Source: Nitrospirota bacterium
GTDB taxonomy: Bacteria > Nitrospirota > Nitrospiria > Nitrospirales > Nitrospiraceae
Assembly: GCA_016219645.1 (NCBI GenBank)
Contig: JACRLR010000007.1
Coordinates: 62,001 to 126,000, forward strand
DNA length: 64,000 nt
Direction: 5' to 3'
How positions within the stretch are numbered: the first letter of the stretch is position 1; every line of letters starts with the position of its first letter. The notes beneath the pieces are model-generated. The model saw only the letters and a program-made list of their open reading frames with translations, searched no databases and was not told where the DNA came from. Shown here in pieces: positions 24,173 to 43,349 of the stretch. The translations under genes were made by a program, and so were the position numbers.

Positions 24173-25147
24173 TTACCGATGTCCAACCAATCGCAGATCT
24201 TCCTCAACCATCTCGTGAACCAAGTCCGTGAACTTGCCGTCGTACGACCAGCCGAGCTTTTGCCTGGCCTTTGAGGCATCGCCCAGCAGGGTTTCTACTT
24301 CTGACGGCCTCATAAACTGCTGGTCGATCTTGACATAGTCATGGTAATCGAGGCCGACATATGCGAAAGCGACCTCAGCAAACTGCCTCACCGTATGTTG
24401 TTCTCCCGTGGCAATGACATAGTCGTCCGGTTTGTCCTCTTGCAGCATCAGCCACATAGCTCTCACGTATTCGCGCGCATGTCCCCAGTCACGGCGCGCC
24501 TCCAGATTCCCAAGTCGTAGCTCTTTTGCCAAACCCATCTTGATGCGAGCGACATGTGACGTGATCTTACGGGTCACAAACTCGAATCCTCGGCGGGGGG
24601 ACTCATGATTGTAGAGAATTCCTGAAGAGGCTTTAATTCCATTCGCCTCTCGATAGTTTCTCGTCAGGTGGAAACCGGCGACTTTGGAAATGCCATAGGC
24701 CGAACGGGGATGGAACGGCGTCTGTTCGTTCTGAGGCACCTGTGCCACTTTCCCGAACATCTCGCTGGATGCGGCAAAGTAGAATCGGCAGTGAGGCGCC
24801 GCGTCTCGCAAAGCGGCCAACACATAATGCGTGCCATTAATATTGGCATTCAGCGTCGAAAATTCATCCTCGAAGGAATAGGCCACGAAACTTTGAGCAG
24901 CCAGGTGATAGCACTCATCCGGCTTCACCATCTCGAACACACGATAAATGCTCGGGAAGCTTTCCAGCGACGCAGCGTGGAACTGGATCTGATCTTTCAG
25001 GTGCAGGATACGGTGCAGCCGGTGAACCGGATCTTCGATGGCGACCCGTCTCACCACTCCATGGACTTCGTAACCTTGTTTGAGGAGCAGTTCCGATAAA
25101 TAGGATCCGTCCTGCCCTGTGATTCCGGTGATCAGTGCCCGTTTCAC
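24173..25147 (-). CDS. gmd: GDP-mannose 4,6-dehydratase
   Basis: The 324-residue extended SDR converts GDP-mannose to GDP-4-keto-6-deoxymannose. ALITGITGQDGSYLSELLL is the NADP-binding loop with the GMD-specific GITGQDG. ASSEMFGKV holds the catalytic Ser/Glu region, YGISKVAGFH the Tyr-Lys pair, and YNHESPRRGFEFVTRKI is the GMD family signature. The product leads to GDP-rhamnose, GDP-fucose or GDP-perosamine. No rmd, fcl or perosamine synthase gene is adjacent, so the end product is open. Between it and the next gene downstream are 125 bases without a convincing gene. Confidence 0.95.
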   Translation of the reverse strand: MKRALITGITGQDGSYLSELLLKQGYEVHGVVRRVAIEDPVHRLHRILHLKDQIQFHAASLESFPSIYRVFEMVKPDECYHLAAQSFVAYSFEDEFSTLNANINGTHYVLAALRDAAPHCRFYFAASSEMFGKVAQVPQNEQTPFHPRSAYGISKVAGFHLTRNYREANGIKASSGILYNHESPRRGFEFVTRKITSHVARIKMGLAKELRLGNLEARRDWGHAREYVRAMWLMLQEDKPDDYVIATGEQHTVRQFAEVAFAYVGLDYHDYVKIDQQFMRPSEVETLLGDASKARQKLGWSYDGKFTDLVHEMVEEDLRLVGHR

Positions 25148-25182: not shown

Positions 25183-25286
25183 CTCTCGTTTATTTGGTTC
25201 ATTTGGTTTGTTTAGTTTGTCTGTCTAGCTCCGATCCGAGGAACGAAACAAACCAAATAAACTAAATAAACCAAACAAACCAGACA
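25183..25286. repeat. 9-base inverted array A3
   Basis: The left arm TTTGGTTCATTTGGTTTG and right arm CAAACCAAATAAACTAAA flank the loop GCTCCGATCCGAGGAACG. It is nearly identical to array A10 inside waaA, with about five differences over 92 bases. Confidence 0.9.
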
Positions 25287-28328: not shown

Positions 28329-28338
28329 AGCTGCAAAC

Positions 28339-28428
28339 TGGTTTGTTTAGTTTGTTTGGTTTGTTTCGTTAGAACCCGGAGTAACCAAATAAACCAAACA
28401 AACAAAATAAACCAAATAAACCTGGTTC
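28339..28428. repeat. 9-base inverted array A5
   Basis: The arms GGTTTGTTTAGTTTGTTT and CCAAATAAACCAAACAAA flank AGAACCCGGAGT. It fills the gap between the glycosyltransferase gene start at 28328 and the WaaE-like gene stop at 28427. Confidence 0.9.
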
Positions 28429-29179: not shown

Positions 29180-29189
29180 GAACGCCCCT

Positions 29190-29310
29190 CTGGTTTATTT
29201 GGTTCATTTGGTTCATTTGGTTCATTTTGTCTATTTGGTTTATTTTGTTATTTGGTTGGGCTGATTTCATGGTCGACAAGATGAACGAAACAAACCAAAT
29301 AAACCAGATA
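29190..29310. repeat. 9-base inverted array A6
   Basis: The long left arm has seven TTTGG-like units; the shorter right arm (CGAAACAAACCAAATAAA) follows a 30-base centre. It fills the gap between the WaaE-like and heptosyltransferase genes. Confidence 0.9.
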
Positions 29311-29321
29311 ACGATCTGCGC

Positions 29322-30341: not shown

Positions 30342-31372
30342 CGAGGAACCATACGAAGGGGCCTCTGCGCTCGGGCCGCCGCCAGGACCTGGTCAGGCAA
30401 CACCAGTTTCAAACACTCCAAGGGCAGCGTATTGTGGCAGGTCCGACTGAAACAGGGGCTGCAGGGGACCTTCCCGGTCAGGACCTCATGACCGACTCCA
30501 TAGGGGCCCGTTCGCACCGCGCTTGTCGGCCCGAAGAGAGCCACGACCGGCGTACCGACCGCCGCTGCGATATGCATCGGACCTGAATCGTTCGTGATCA
30601 GCATCGACGCCTTGCTGAGGAGCGCCGGCAACAACCCTACTGTTGTGGCTCCGGTCAGATCGATGGCAGAGGTTTTCATCATGGCGCTGACCGCGGCAAC
30701 GTCTGCTCGTTCCTTGCGACCACCGATCATCACCACTGCACGGGATTCTTCTTGTTGCAGCCGATCTGCAACTTCGGCGAATGATTCAACCGGCCACCGC
30801 TTGGTCGGCCACCTGGCAGAGACACCCATCGCCACCCAGCTTGTTCCAGGCGTGACGCCGGAGCGAGTTAAGAGGCGTTCGACCTCCTCATGGTCGGTTT
30901 GCGGAATACGGAAATGAAACTCCGGCGCCCCGGACTCCCCCGCTCCCACGGCCTTGGCCACCAGCAAATAGCGATCGACTGCGTGCATCTCCACTTGCGG
31001 AACCGGCACGCGTTTCGAATAGAACCAGGGACTCCCTTCTCGCCCATTGGCAAATCCTACAAGCAGAGGAGACCCGCTGAGCCGACCGATGGCGGCGCTT
31101 CGGAAGAGCCCCTGAAGATCCACGACGAGATCGAATCGCTCTGCACGCAGAGGGGACACCTGCGAAAGCCACCCGGCGGCTGTCGATTCCACAGGCCAGA
31201 CCCGATCCACCCCATCGATGCGTTCGACGAGGCTAGCCCATTCACGCTTGACGAGCCAGGTCAGTCGAGCCTTGGGATAGGCTCGGCGAATTGCCGCGCA
31301 GGTCGGCATCGCATGCACAATGTCGCCAAGAGAACTCGGCTTGATCAATAAGATATGGCGATAGTCTTCCAT
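30338..31372 (-). CDS. Lipopolysaccharide heptosyltransferase, WaaC-like
   Basis: The 344-residue GT9 enzyme shows HILLIKPSSLGDIVHAMPTC (the WaaC-type opening), VDLQGLFRSAAIGRLSG with the D-L-Q-G motif, SARWPTKRWPVESFAE and ITNDSGPMHIAAAVGTPVVA. CSPCFSRTC is the tail cysteine set. The opening and the DLQG block suggest the heptosyltransferase that adds the first L-glycero-D-manno-heptose to Kdo, but heptosyltransferase II-type specificity cannot be excluded. It is 60 bases from the waaF-gmhB gene, separated by a 7-base inverted array. Confidence 0.85.
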   Translation of the reverse strand: MEDYRHILLIKPSSLGDIVHAMPTCAAIRRAYPKARLTWLVKREWASLVERIDGVDRVWPVESTAAGWLSQVSPLRAERFDLVVDLQGLFRSAAIGRLSGSPLLVGFANGREGSPWFYSKRVPVPQVEMHAVDRYLLVAKAVGAGESGAPEFHFRIPQTDHEEVERLLTRSGVTPGTSWVAMGVSARWPTKRWPVESFAEVADRLQQEESRAVVMIGGRKERADVAAVSAMMKTSAIDLTGATTVGLLPALLSKASMLITNDSGPMHIAAAVGTPVVALFGPTSAVRTGPYGVGHEVLTGKVPCSPCFSRTCHNTLPLECLKLVLPDQVLAAARAQRPLRMVPR

Positions 31373-31375
31373 GAG

Positions 31376-31453
31376 CGTTATTCGTCAATCGTTAAACGTG
31401 AATTGTAAGACTGAGCCCCTTATTGTGACCGATTAGCGATTAACGATTAACGG
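31376..31453. repeat. 7-base inverted array at the waaF-gmhB stop
   Basis: Left units CGTTATT, CGTCAAT, CGTTAAA and right units ATTAGCG, ATTAACG, ATTAACG are inverted copies of one 7-base motif. The stop and the last five residues of the upstream fusion gene are inside it. Confidence 0.8.
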
Positions 31454-33148
31454 CGGACGTGTCGTCGCTGCATCGGCCAAGATCCAGTCAACTGCCTCGG
31501 CCATAGACTTCGCCACTGTATCGGGCATGACTTGCTCAGCCTGGAGTCTATCCAACGCCTGCTGGTCTACCGAGCCACTTGTAATAAGAATAGCCTTGGC
31601 GCCCACTCTTTGTGCCAATTGAACGTCGCGTGCGTGATCGCCGATCATATAGGAACGGCGGAGGTCGAGTTGCAACTCTGACACCGCCCGCTCGACCATT
31701 CCGGCATTCGGTTTGCGGCAGTGGCAACCATCGTTGGGATGGTGCGGGCAGAAATAGATGGCATCGAGCGCCGCCTGCTCCTGTTCCAAAAGACCTTGTA
31801 ATCTCGCATGAATCGCTTCCAGATCCTTGAGGGTAATCATTCCACGACCGACCGCGGATTGGTTCGTCACGACCACTAATCTCGCACCGGCCTGTTTCAA
31901 TCGCGCCAGGGCCGACGCAACCCCCGGCAATAACTTCAGATCAGCGGCGATTTTCAGATAGCCTGGATCGTAGTTCAATGTCCCGTCACGATCCAGAAAG
32001 ACGGTGACCCCGTCGAGGATGTTTGTTTGGTTGATCTGGTTTATTTGGTTGGTCGGAATTATTCGGTTCGAACCAAATGAACCAAACAAACCAGATGAGC
32101 CAGATAACCGTTCGGTCGCTGCGTCATACACCATGTCCACCGACACCCCTGTCATACACCGATGGTCGATGGGACATTCACGCAACAGGCAGGGCGCGCA
32201 ATCGACCGGCTGCCGCACAACTGCATGGGCGCCCCCAAAGGGTGACGTGGTGCGCCAATCGGTCGGGCCGAAGATGGCCACGACCGGCACCTGGAATGCA
32301 GCGGCGATGTGCATAGGGCCTGTATCGTTTGAGAGGAGCATGGCACAGCGTTTCACTGCCGCCATGAGTTCCCGGATCGTCGTTGATCCGGACAAGACCA
32401 GCGATCGGGACGACAGACGGGCGGCAATCTCCTGGCCTAAACGCTCTTCCCCCTTGGCTCCAAAAATAACCACGCTGACCTGTTGATCTCGCGATTCGCG
32501 AACTGTGCGGCACAGTCGCTCCGCCACTTCGGCAAACCGATCGGGCAACCAGCGTTTGGCCCCGCCATACGTCGACCCGGGGTTGATGCCCACGACGACA
32601 TCCGATGCGGTCAATCCACCCTGGGCGAATCGCCCGGCCATCGCCTGCTCCTCTGCCGGAAAGACGACGAGTTCCGGTGCAGTCGGAACCCCAGTGAGAC
32701 CCAGCGGCTTTAGGAGATCCCAATAATAATGGACTTGGTGGACGAGCGGACGGGGGTCAGGCGGGGCAACTGGATCGGACAGGAGTAAACTTCGTCCGTC
32801 TGTCGTATACCCATAGCGCCGAGGCACAGAAGCCAGGAAAGTCAGGAACGCCGCCTCGAATGCATTCTGAAACAGTATCGCAAGGTCGAAGCCTTTCCGC
32901 CGCAACTCCCCGGCCAATACCCACTTACCTGAGAGCCCCGTATGTCGTCCGTTACTCTCATAGGTCAGCACATGCGTCAATGCCGGATGGTCCTTAAACA
33001 AATCTGCCACACCCGGTTTCACCAACAATGAAATTTGAGCGTCGGGAAATAGTTTCTGCAATCCGCGGAGCGCCGGCTCGGACATCACCGCATCGCCAAG
33101 CCAATTAGGCCCACGCACAAGAATTCTCTTGATGGCGTCTTTATTCAC
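31433..33148 (-). CDS. Heptosyltransferase II fused to D,D-heptose 1,7-bisphosphate phosphatase
   Basis: This is a two-domain protein. The N-terminal ~345 residues are WaaF-type GT9 (KRILVRGPNWLGDAVMSEPA, GINPGSTYGGAKRWLPDRF, LLSNDTGPMHIAAAFQVPVV, CLLRECPIDHRC). The C-terminal ~175 residues are a HAD phosphatase of the GmhB type (VFLDRDGTLNYDPGYL, VVTNQSAVGRG, FCPHHPNDGCHCRKP with its zinc loop, MIGDHARDVQLAQRVG). A repeat-derived linker (LFGSFGS, TNQINQINQTN) joins them. I start at the GTG 33146-33148 beside a GGAGG; an upstream TTG at 33223 would add repeat-encoded residues. The last residues (LIVNR) and stop come from a 7-base array. The fusion joins heptose precursor synthesis to heptose transfer. 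Confidence 0.88.
   Translation of the reverse strand: MNKDAIKRILVRGPNWLGDAVMSEPALRGLQKLFPDAQISLLVKPGVADLFKDHPALTHVLTYESNGRHTGLSGKWVLAGELRRKGFDLAILFQNAFEAAFLTFLASVPRRYGYTTDGRSLLLSDPVAPPDPRPLVHQVHYYWDLLKPLGLTGVPTAPELVVFPAEEQAMAGRFAQGGLTASDVVVGINPGSTYGGAKRWLPDRFAEVAERLCRTVRESRDQQVSVVIFGAKGEERLGQEIAARLSSRSLVLSGSTTIRELMAAVKRCAMLLSNDTGPMHIAAAFQVPVVAIFGPTDWRTTSPFGGAHAVVRQPVDCAPCLLRECPIDHRCMTGVSVDMVYDAATERLSGSSGLFGSFGSNRIIPTNQINQINQTNILDGVTVFLDRDGTLNYDPGYLKIAADLKLLPGVASALARLKQAGARLVVVTNQSAVGRGMITLKDLEAIHARLQGLLEQEQAALDAIYFCPHHPNDGCHCRKPNAGMVERAVSELQLDLRRSYMIGDHARDVQLAQRVGAKAILITSGSVDQQALDRLQAEQVMPDTVAKSMAEAVDWILADAATTRPPLIVNR
32021..32109. repeat. 9-base inverted array A7 inside the waaF-gmhB gene
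   Basis: Arms GTTTGTTTGGTTGATCTG and CCAAATGAACCAAACAAA lie in frame. On the coding strand they read LFGSFGS and TNQINQINQTN, the linker between the two enzyme domains. Confidence 0.9.
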
Positions 33149-33170
33149 AACCCTCCGCAACCGAGAAGGT

Positions 33171-33263
33171 TCGTTTGGTTTATCTCGTTTGTTTAGTTTG
33201 TTTGGTGTCTTCGAACGAAACAAACCAAATGAACCAAATAAACTAAACAGACCAACTCAACCA
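33171..33263. repeat. 9-base inverted array A8
   Basis: Arms TCGTTTGGTTTATCTCGT and CAAACCAAATGAACCAAA fill the gap between lpxK and the waaF-gmhB start. An upstream TTG start within the array would add residues such as NKLNKRDKPNEP. Confidence 0.88.
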
Positions 33264-33280
33264 GTCATCTGGAGGATAGC

Positions 33281-33303
33281 CTTCAGCCTTCAGCCTTCAG
33301 CCT
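33281..33303. repeat. 7-base CTTCAGC array at the lpxK stop
   Basis: Three perfect CTTCAGC units contain the lpxK TGA stop and code its last residues KAEG. Confidence 0.85.
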
Positions 33304-34383: not shown

Positions 34384-34555
34384 TCAGGCTGAAGGCTTTT
34401 AGACTGAAGGTCGAGCTTGTTCATTTCGTCTATCTGGTCTGTCTGGTCTATCTGGTTGGTTTGGTTTATCCGGTTAGTCTGAGTCAACAAGTACACGAGA
34501 TAGACGAGACGGACCGAATAGACCAGATAGACAAGACAGACCCGCCTTCAGCCTA
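34384..34555. repeat. Nested array A9: 9-base inverted arms inside 7-base arms
   Basis: The inner part (34417-34542) is a TCTATCTGG-type 9-base inverted array. Outside it, GGCTGAAGGCTTTTAG (34387 on) and CTTCAGCC (34547 on) form a second, outer inverted pair of the 7-base type. It fills the gap between waaA and lpxK. Confidence 0.82.
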
Positions 34556-34571: not shown

Positions 34572-35984
34572 TTATCGCTCAGCCATGAGGGAAAGCGACC
34601 GCTCCGCGCGAGGGGCCCCGCTGCTGCCTTGGTGTTGCATCAAGAGCTTCTCTATGGCCTCCAGCGTTTGTTCCAACGCTCCCTGATTTTGTTCCACCAC
34701 CTGACGAGCCGATCGTCCCATCCGCTCCCGTTGCTCGTCATCAGAAAAAAGAGCTAATACCTGCCTTGTGAGATCCTCCTGATGGGAAACCCGATATCCT
34801 CCACCAGCCTGAATCAGGAGATCTGCAATCTCCGCACAGTGGTCAGTGTGGGGGCCGAACAACACCGGCTTTGCCCACTGAGCCGGCTCCAGTAAATTAT
34901 GTCCACCGATTGGAACGAGCGTGCCTCCGACAAACGCGACCACCGCTTCCCGATAGATAGCGGGCAATTCGCCGCGTGAATCGAGCAACAGCACACGGGT
35001 GCCGATGGGCTGCAACGCGCCAACCTGCCCGATGGTACTGCGTCGCTGCACGGCGAGCCCGCGCGCACGGATCATTGCCTCCACCGATTCCACTCGCTCA
35101 ATGTGTCGTGGAGCCAACAGTAACACCGCTGAAGGGCATTGCCTCACAAGTGCCAGATAACATCCCACGAGGGCTTCTTCTTCACCAGGATGGGTACTAC
35201 CCGCTACAAATAACTGGTCCGTCGCCTGGAGCCCAAGGGAAGATCTGACCATTCCGCCTCGTACGACAGCTGGTATCGGTTGATCGAATTTGATATTTCC
35301 TGTTCGCCTGACCCGCGAGGCCTCTGCTCCAAGGGCAATGATACGGTCGACATCCCGGTCAGACTGCATCAAACAGAGACTGAGCGTCTGCAACATCGAT
35401 CGATACAATGATCGCACAGGCCCCCATTGCTGCCGCGCAAAGGACCGACTCGAAAGCCTGCCGTTCACCATCACAGTAGGAACCCCCTGCCGATGAAGGT
35501 TCCGGAGCAAATTGGGCCACAGCTCGGTTTCGATGAAGAGATATAGTACCGGGCGTAATCGGGTAACCAGCCGTGAGACGACCCAAGGGAAATCCAACGG
35601 AGCATAGAGATGTTCGGCCAGACCGGCCAGCCGCTGCTCAACTGCTTCTCGTCCTGTTTCCGTCACCGTCGACACGATGAACCGGTGATTCGGATAGCGC
35701 CGATGCAGCTCCTTGATCAATGGCGTGACTGCCACCACCTCGCCAAGAGAGACGGCGTGGATCCAGATAACTGGTTTGTTTGGTTCATTTGGTTTGTTTA
35801 GTTTGTCTGGTTGGCTCCGATCCGATGAACGAAACAAACCAAATAAACTAAATAAACCAAACAAACCTGTTTCACACCCCAGCCGCTGCGGTAATCCTCG
35901 GCGACAACGCTGTTTGGCGAGCAGGATGACAAGAATGATGGGAGAAGCTATCAGTAGCAGTACATTGTAGAGGAGATGCCACAT
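34572..35984 (-). CDS. waaA: Kdo transferase with in-frame repeat insertion
   Basis: The 470-residue GT30 enzyme adds Kdo to lipid IVA. An N-terminal membrane anchor (LLYNVLLLIASPIILVILL) precedes RGLPQRLG; the conserved VIWIHAVSLGEVVAVTPLI, FIETELWPNLLR, VMVNGRLSSRSF, VAGSTHPGEEE, AFVGGTLVPIGGHNLLEPA follow. Between RLG and VIWIHA, about residues 40-71 are coded by a 9-base inverted array (LFGLFSLFGLF, then DKLNKPNEPNKP); most relatives have only a short variable loop there. The loop lies between the membrane anchor and the catalytic core, so it may be tolerated. No good ribosome site is visible. Confidence 0.93.
   Translation of the reverse strand: MWHLLYNVLLLIASPIILVILLAKQRCRRGLPQRLGCETGLFGLFSLFGLFRSSDRSQPDKLNKPNEPNKPVIWIHAVSLGEVVAVTPLIKELHRRYPNHRFIVSTVTETGREAVEQRLAGLAEHLYAPLDFPWVVSRLVTRLRPVLYLFIETELWPNLLRNLHRQGVPTVMVNGRLSSRSFARQQWGPVRSLYRSMLQTLSLCLMQSDRDVDRIIALGAEASRVRRTGNIKFDQPIPAVVRGGMVRSSLGLQATDQLFVAGSTHPGEEEALVGCYLALVRQCPSAVLLLAPRHIERVESVEAMIRARGLAVQRRSTIGQVGALQPIGTRVLLLDSRGELPAIYREAVVAFVGGTLVPIGGHNLLEPAQWAKPVLFGPHTDHCAEIADLLIQAGGGYRVSHQEDLTRQVLALFSDDEQRERMGRSARQVVEQNQGALEQTLEAIEKLLMQHQGSSGAPRAERSLSLMAER
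35771..35869. repeat. 9-base inverted array A10 inside waaA
   Basis: Arms CTGGTTTGTTTGGTTCAT and CAAACCAAATAAACTAAA with the loop GCTCCGATCCGATGAACG lie wholly inside the waaA frame, adding about 33 codons. Array A3 is a near-identical copy. Confidence 0.93.
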
Positions 35985-36003
35985 GGCTTTTTGCGTTAGG
36001 CCA

Positions 36004-36070
36004 GAGACGTGAAACGTGGAACGACGCGACTTGCCCTTTACCCCTTACGCCTAACCCCTCACGCTTCACA
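36004..36070. repeat. 7-base array at the DUF374 gene stop
   Basis: On the minus strand the units read TGAAGCG, TGAGGGG, TTAGGCG, TAAGGGG, TAAAGGG. The TGA stop at 36059-36061 is the start of the second unit. A shorter outer part (GACGTGAAACGTGGAAC) has a similar period. Confidence 0.75.
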
Positions 36071-36738
36071 CTGTACGGCATTTTCCGCTTGATTCGTCAG
36101 TCGATTGAGGACCGTCTCAAGCTCCCGGCATGCCGCCTCCAACGCCTGTTCATCGGAATCTCGCGGCACCCAGATGGGGTCGCCCCATAGATAGAGACCA
36201 CGGGACCATGGATATGGGACCATGAATCGATCCCAGCTCGCGAAAAGTTTTTTTTTGAACAACCAAAGGCCAGCGGCACTATCGGAAGCCCCGTCGCCTT
36301 CGCCAGTTGAACCACCCCGAGTTTCGCAACCTGGCGAGGTCCCTTGGGTCCATCGGGAGTCACGACAAGATCAGCGCCTGATCGCCCAAGACGGATGAGC
36401 TCACGCAAGGCAAGCGCCCCACCCCTTGTGCTCGACCCACGAACCGCACAATGTCCAAAGCGCGAGACAATGCGCGCGATGATCTCACCATCTTGATGCT
36501 GGCTGATTAATACGTTGGCCCCTGTTCCACGATAGCCGGTCGGGATCATGAGTTGCTGCGCGTGCCAAAACGCAAGGATGATGTGCTGGCCCTGACGGTA
36601 CAACGCATCGACCTGCTCATGGCCCTGCGAATCCATCCGCATCGACCGCCCCAACCCTCGAATCACCGCTGCGCCGAGGGGAGGGAGTACAGAGAGCTTC
36701 AGCCACGTCTCGACACGCTTCAGAGCCGGGCTACGCAT
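36059..36738 (-). CDS. DUF374 lysophospholipid acyltransferase-like protein, frameshifted
   Basis: The gene starts at the ATG 36736-36738 inside the msbA 3' end, with AGGA nine bases upstream. The first frame gives the conserved DUF374 blocks IILAFWHAQQLMIPTGYRG, ISQHQDGEIIARIVSRFGH, RGSSTRGGALALREL and VVTPDGPKGPRQVAK. At a run of nine A on the coding strand (36248-36256) the expected text continues in another frame (LFASWDRFMVPYPWSRG to the stop at 36059), while the original frame ends early at 36097. It could be a sequencing or true indel, or slippage: the site reads A-AAA-AAC, a classical -1 slippery heptamer. The family is related to LpxL/LpxM-like acyltransferases, and the gene lies between msbA and waaA. 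Confidence 0.82.
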
Positions 36739-43228: not shown

Positions 43229-43349
43229 CTGGTTCATCTGGTCTATCTCGTCTATCTCGTCTATCTGGTCTATCTGGTTGGTCGGAACGGAAATTCATCC
43301 AGAAGAACCAGACAGACCAGAAAGACCAGCCAACCAGACAGACCAACCC
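43229..43349. repeat. 9-base inverted array A11
   Basis: This is a TCTATCTGG variant: arms TCTATCTGGTCTATCTGG and CCAGACAGACCAGAAAGA. With the two elements before it, it fills the 468-base gap between fabZ and the skp-like gene, where lpxD lies in many other bacteria. Confidence 0.88.

Follow-up and report, generated by a model that had tools for sequence, protein, structure and literature searches.

How does a non-coding repeat come to be read as protein within a conserved enzyme? The question arises at waaA, the gene of the Kdo transferase, in a Nitrospira genome of 3.65 Mb. The window, i.e. the whole stretch of DNA analysed here, spans 64 kb of that genome (G000:C7:62001-126000), and the sample comprises 32 species of the genus. 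Most of the genomes compared are metagenome assemblies; the closed N. moscoviensis chromosome has the same anatomy. The features discussed below are collected in Table 1.

Inside waaA, positions 35771-35867 form an inverted array of 9-nt units. A trained periodic HMM yields the unit TYTGGTYTR and calls zero arms in shuffled sequence. The two arms are 84% complementary over 44 nt, and the RNA fold of the array reaches -46.4 kcal/mol, versus -24.6 +/- 2.9 in shuffles. The reading frame is open across the whole array in the window copy, and the resulting loop peptide of WaaA is GLFGLFSLFGLFRSSDRSQPDKLNKPNEPNKP. The original prediction of a 9-base inverted array lying in frame inside waaA is thus confirmed. 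Its placement of the array, after the membrane anchor and before the catalytic domain, is upheld as well: the anchor ends upstream of the array, PF04413 covers residues 67-235 (Pfam, E=2e-62), and the alignment to the known Kdo transferase structure 2xci begins at residue 70 (E=3e-35). A single full-length match to WaaA was found in the genome. The N-terminal anchor is coding and conserved as protein, with a divergence by codon position of 0.28/0.14/0.50 in the array-bearing species. A start codon located 3' of the array, which would leave the array non-coding, was rejected because the anchor has the divergence pattern of coding sequence and is also conserved in relatives that lack the array. 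Since all 26 waaA arrays described below are read through in frame and the upstream anchor evolves as protein, the array is internal to WaaA. AlphaFold gives pLDDT values of 44-57 at residues 41-70 and above 90 from residue 71; the array-encoded segment is accordingly modelled as a disordered linker of roughly 32 residues, joining the anchor to the catalytic domain. In the sister species, waaA (L054:6001-7392, G017:C39) displays an in-frame TAA shortly past the loop, reflecting either a pseudogene or an assembly error.

Table 1. Coordinates of the array-bearing genes, array parts and related elements in the window. In the HMM calls, the AC-rich arm extends over the last bases of the core.
Feature	Position	Strand	Remarks
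waaA (Kdo transferase)	34572..35984	-	470 aa, single copy; PF04413, PDB 2xci
WaaA N-terminal membrane anchor, residues 1-36	35877..35984	-	invariant columns, codon-position divergence, predicted helix 2-23
AC-rich arm (+ strand), 5' (GTTTG) arm in waaA mRNA	35824..35867	-	read GLFGLFSLFGLF
Non-repeat core/apex TCGGATCGGAGC	35813..35827	-	from alignment; common to intergenic element 25184-25286
TG-rich arm (+ strand), 3' arm in mRNA	35771..35812	-	read PDKLNKPNEPNKP
Intergenic element, same family, inferred donor lineage	25184..25286	none	94% identical over 97 nt
Intergenic hairpin array, 9-nt family	28338..28422	not assigned	
Intergenic hairpin array, 9-nt family	29189..29311	not assigned	
Second in-frame 9-nt array, linker of heptosyltransferase-GmhB (HAD) fusion 31433-33148	32021..32107	-	
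Intergenic hairpin array, lpxK / heptosyltransferase-GmhB spacer	33168..33264	none	site empty in L054
Intergenic hairpin array, waaA / lpxK spacer	34409..34542	none	site empty in L054
Intergenic hairpin array, 9-nt family	43229..43346	not assigned	

The array belongs to a dispersed family, counted in 1.25 Mb of this genome taken in stretches. There, 126 hairpin elements were counted along with 36 arms that stand alone, for a total of 288 arms and 162 elements; the median element length is 97 nt and the median folding z-score -6.5. Adjacent arms follow the order TG-then-AC in 126 cases and AC-then-TG in 6; a TG-rich run is followed by an AC-rich run, and the strand therefore folds on itself. 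Coding DNA amounts to 82%, though only 6 of the 162 elements fall in called coding sequence, according to gene calls made with a simple codon-usage script. An 18-nt pattern retrieves 630 matches in G000, 706 in G002, 535 in G003 and 417 in G008, tens in other Nitrospira species, and few if any in most of the order's other genera; the reversed-pattern control was uninformative because the 9-nt unit is nearly mirror symmetric. Across species of this one genus, the family ranges from 5 to about 700 pattern matches, and such strong differences in copy number suggest bursts. Spacers of the same operon (about 36000-36075, 31340-31460 and 33278-33303) also harbor other arrays, inverted or direct, whose period is short, about 7 nt (TTACGCC/TCACGC, TTAATCG and AGCCTTC); several repeat families of like build therefore coexist in the operon. 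Arrays are also observed at protein ends (L125:17948-19777, L132:1330-4671 and L177:18624-19148), the hosts being an outer membrane efflux protein (near its N-terminus), a TPS-domain secreted protein (C-terminus) and a small ORF, although it is doubtful whether these ends are coding.

The three-codon unit had been proposed to make the array safe for the reading frame. This stands for changes by whole units but not for whole elements, whose lengths are uniform modulo 3 (43/42/41) and whose frames are open in a proportion of 0.32, versus 0.33 for random intergenic DNA. That the unit is inherently translatable was likewise rejected: all variants of TYTGGTYTR keep five of six frames stop-free, yet the actual elements, being degenerate, have no larger share of open frames than random spacer DNA. 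Since element lengths are random modulo 3 and the arrays are not especially stop-free, it is selection that keeps the frame. Complementarity between the two arms of a given element barely exceeds that between arms taken from different elements; therefore, neither strict selection for a hairpin nor a palindrome correction that keeps the arms complementary fits, and the latter was discarded. A role as terminator was also discarded, as the intergenic elements are distributed in rough proportion to intergenic length, with no clear preference for convergent gene pairs.

Several known repeat classes share traits with this family. Intragenic REPs tagged with GTAG/CGTC are high-copy hairpins, mostly intergenic, that sometimes lie in frame and encode 20-30 residues (PMC3733652). 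The Nitrospira family is likewise high-copy, intergenic and hairpin-forming. However, its arms are made of degenerate 9-nt units, and its elements measure about 97 nt, against 20-40 for REPs. Furthermore, the GTAG/CGTC tag was found at 13 and 10 of 252 stem feet, versus 16.7 expected by chance, and the transposase domain Y1_Tnp occurs once in G000 and was not detected in the array-bearing G019, G015, G023 and G031, some genomes being incomplete. With neither a tag nor a consistent Y1 transposase, a RAYT-driven REP was dismissed. As regards MITEs, which are defined by terminal inverted repeats with a target-site duplication, no conserved motif was detected at or outside the element ends, and the filled and empty states of the lpxK-hepT site, a single site compared by eye, reveal no clear target duplication. 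PARCELs are palindromic DNA repeats that encode protein repeats, in the form of 25-residue amphipathic coding domains in tandem (PMC2996958); the Nitrospira arrays share this coding of protein repeats by palindromic DNA, but their unit is 9 nt and the repeat is primarily non-coding, most copies being intergenic. The TAACTGA heptamers of Beggiatoaceae are, as here, tandem repeats of a short unit that are scattered through intergenic DNA, with a few inside genes (PMC4679880). Their units are repeated directly, and every forward frame contains stops, whereas the Nitrospira arrays are inverted. No published description of 9-nt arrays in Nitrospira was found in the literature searched; RepRanger counts REP-like sequences in N. 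moscoviensis, and the part of that source considered here does not describe the 9-nt arrays.

At the level of the genus, 26 of the 81 Nitrospira genomes examined have an in-frame array at the same position of waaA. Among them is the closed N. moscoviensis chromosome, where the array likewise matches a family dispersed in that genome. The abrupt insertion anticipated in the WaaA alignment is seen: array-bearing species have loops of 21-46 residues, against 12-16 in most of their array-free relatives; relatives free of the repeat were checked for the same loop and do not share it. Four array-free members nested in the genus (L045, L047, L048 and L049) possess a loop of about 21 residues, which looks like a decayed array. 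Variation in steps of three residues, also anticipated, holds within sub-lineages (loops of 23/29/32 and 24/30/36 residues, with L054 and L037 differing by one 9-nt unit) but not across all species. On a quick tree of the WaaA catalytic part, on which gain is indistinguishable from loss, the presence or absence of the array changes at least nine times, five of these changes being forced by well supported branches.

The codons of the loop bear the mark of the DNA unit. Glycine is encoded by GGT in 83 of 91 cases within the 26 array loops, compared with 151 of 950 in the rest of WaaA and 13 of 77 in array-free loops. The same is observed for proline and CCA (98 of 117, versus 58 of 609 and 20 of 125, respectively). 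The loop codons are thus dictated by the DNA unit and not by the gene's own usage. As third positions elsewhere in these genes differ by about one half between species, such a bias lasts only with renewal of the DNA or with a constraint acting at the DNA level. A constraint might take the form of selection on the hairpin itself, in waaA mRNA or DNA, which would fix the codons; the hairpin might, for example, slow the ribosome between membrane insertion and domain folding, or provide a site for a nucleoid or RNA protein. The strong fold of the waaA array and the unit-dictated codons of the array-bearing species are in line with this proposal, as is the third-position divergence in five related waaA arrays, 0.12 versus 0.41 in the flank. 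Many close relatives, however, have no array at the waaA site and keep a short loop, and in any one element the sequence of an arm does not follow that of its partner. In addition, third-position divergence is not lowered in the linker of the heptosyltransferase-GmhB (HepT-GmhB) fusion (0.365 versus 0.31), so that a general DNA-level suppression of synonymous change is not supported. Selection on the hairpin is therefore considered unlikely.

This HepT-GmhB linker is the second in-gene site of the window, and it carries a 9-nt array at a conserved position in many species. In L054 (9653-9740) and L047 (9480-9640), the linker is occupied by a 7-nt inverted array, GTGAGGGG / CCTCACG, having partial matches elsewhere in those genomes; judging from the peptides, this 7-nt array is also present in the HepT-GmhB linkers of L091, L096 and L105. 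Other linkers of this fusion (L115, L057, L092 and L102) look repeat-derived by eye. Because 9-nt, 7-nt and other repeat-like linkers are found depending on the species, the site seems to host unrelated repeat families. These observations also bear on whether the peptide is the target of selection, the alternating (L/F-G-S) and (P-D/N-K/R) repeats being functional in WaaA and the likeness to DNA repeats a by-product. Both conserved in-gene arrays read their TG-rich arm in the S/F-G-L frame, and their positions are conserved in many species, which speaks for this reading. On the other hand, HepT-GmhB linker peptides are quite different, and stem from other repeat families, in L047, L054, L115 and others. 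The WaaA loop varies in length as given above and is absent from many relatives, its codon choice tracks the DNA unit, and the structural model predicts disorder. Selection on the peptide is thus very unlikely.

The window offers a case of apparent renewal of an in-gene copy. The waaA array and the intergenic element at 25184-25286, 10 kb apart, are 93.8% identical over 97 nt, the fourth-best of 7875 element pairs, and have a 12-nt non-repeat core in common. This core is absent from the waaA arrays of G017, G003 and G020, which are those compared; in the sister species G017, waaA DNA is 88% identical, yet the site holds a different array. Given this match to a spacer element and the unlikeness to the sister species' array, recombination from spacer to waaA is suggested, and in this genome an intergenic copy appears to have replaced the one in the gene. 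The orthologous spacer of G003 also carries a core-bearing element (L193:2854-2961), which is 84.5% identical to the window waaA array. Flanks included, the spacer elements of G000 and G003 are 78% identical, hence farther apart than the waaA copy and the G000 spacer; on this basis, the core was probably first in the spacer, the waaA copy being overwritten later. We infer both the spacer-to-gene direction and gene conversion as the route; the direction assumes roughly equal rates and draws on one exchange. Next to the spacer element lies a GDP-mannose 4,6-dehydratase-like gene (24173-25147), whose similarity to G003 reaches 97% in amino acids and 90% in DNA, while its neighbouring gene is 75% identical to G003. 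As the dehydratase gene is unusually similar to its G003 counterpart, this region may have moved between species, which counts against the direction proposed above.

Could the waaA array instead be an old insertion, inherited vertically, its likeness to intergenic elements reflecting shared unit composition with no exchange between spacers and genes? The orthologous waaA arrays of G017, G002, G016, G006 and G008, which are 87-97% identical, behave as such a history would have it. Nevertheless, the window array shares its core and 94% of 97 nt with the spacer element and not with its orthologs, and synonymous sites should by now have taken on the codon usage of the rest of the gene, which they have not. 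Purely vertical descent is accordingly regarded as extremely unlikely.

The best explanation, with a probability of about 0.7, is that of a dispersed hairpin repeat tolerated in the WaaA linker, renewed by DNA turnover and under selection on its frame. It builds on what was observed: where the array lies and in which frame, its membership in the family, codons dictated by the unit, and an intergenic element to which it is nearly identical. The waaA array is one copy of a dispersed, mostly intergenic Nitrospira hairpin family, and it fills in frame the loop that leads from the membrane anchor to the first strand of the catalytic domain, a place where an unstructured linker of variable length would be tolerated. 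In-gene copies would turn over by loss or gain of 9-nt units, and may be replaced through recombination with, or copying from, other elements, intergenic ones included; selection would retain only the lengths and frames that preserve WaaA. The array segment is most likely a passive linker. The proposal that a non-coding repeat becomes protein sequence thus gains support from the abrupt insert, the unit-dictated codons and the 94% match to an intergenic element.

The closest precedent is that of the Rickettsia palindromic elements (RPE; Ogata et al. 2000, 2002), in-frame palindromes of about 150 bp at tolerated gene positions (PMC10969869). The waaA array resembles them as a dispersed palindromic repeat in frame within an otherwise conserved gene and, in this respect, works like an RPE. 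In the descriptions consulted, RPEs are mainly found in genes and a 9-nt tandem build is not described (PMC10969869). In contrast, the Nitrospira family is mostly intergenic, its in-gene site recurs across much of the genus, and in one case the copy in a gene matches a copy in a spacer. Coding sequences with palindromic repeats have precedents in RPEs and intragenic REPs; the nonameric inverted-array build and the evidence for renewal from spacers set the present arrays apart.

The passage from non-coding repeat DNA to protein can here be traced over dozens of species, at one site of a conserved enzyme. The waaA site offers the array-free state, several array states, and one case in which both donor and recipient can be identified. 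Testing for codons set by the DNA unit (GGT and CCA) provides a simple means to find more segments of this kind. The system also carries a warning, namely that linker sequences in Nitrospira genomes are not to be taken as protein-level conservation. More broadly, and tentatively, domain linkers of Nitrospira housekeeping enzymes might be long-term hosts of self-renewing repeats, one linker being re-seeded time and again from intergenic arrays, even of unrelated families such as the 9-nt or 7-nt arrays of the HepT-GmhB linker. If so, the sequence of these linkers would be written by repeat turnover, with selection controlling only their frame and length.
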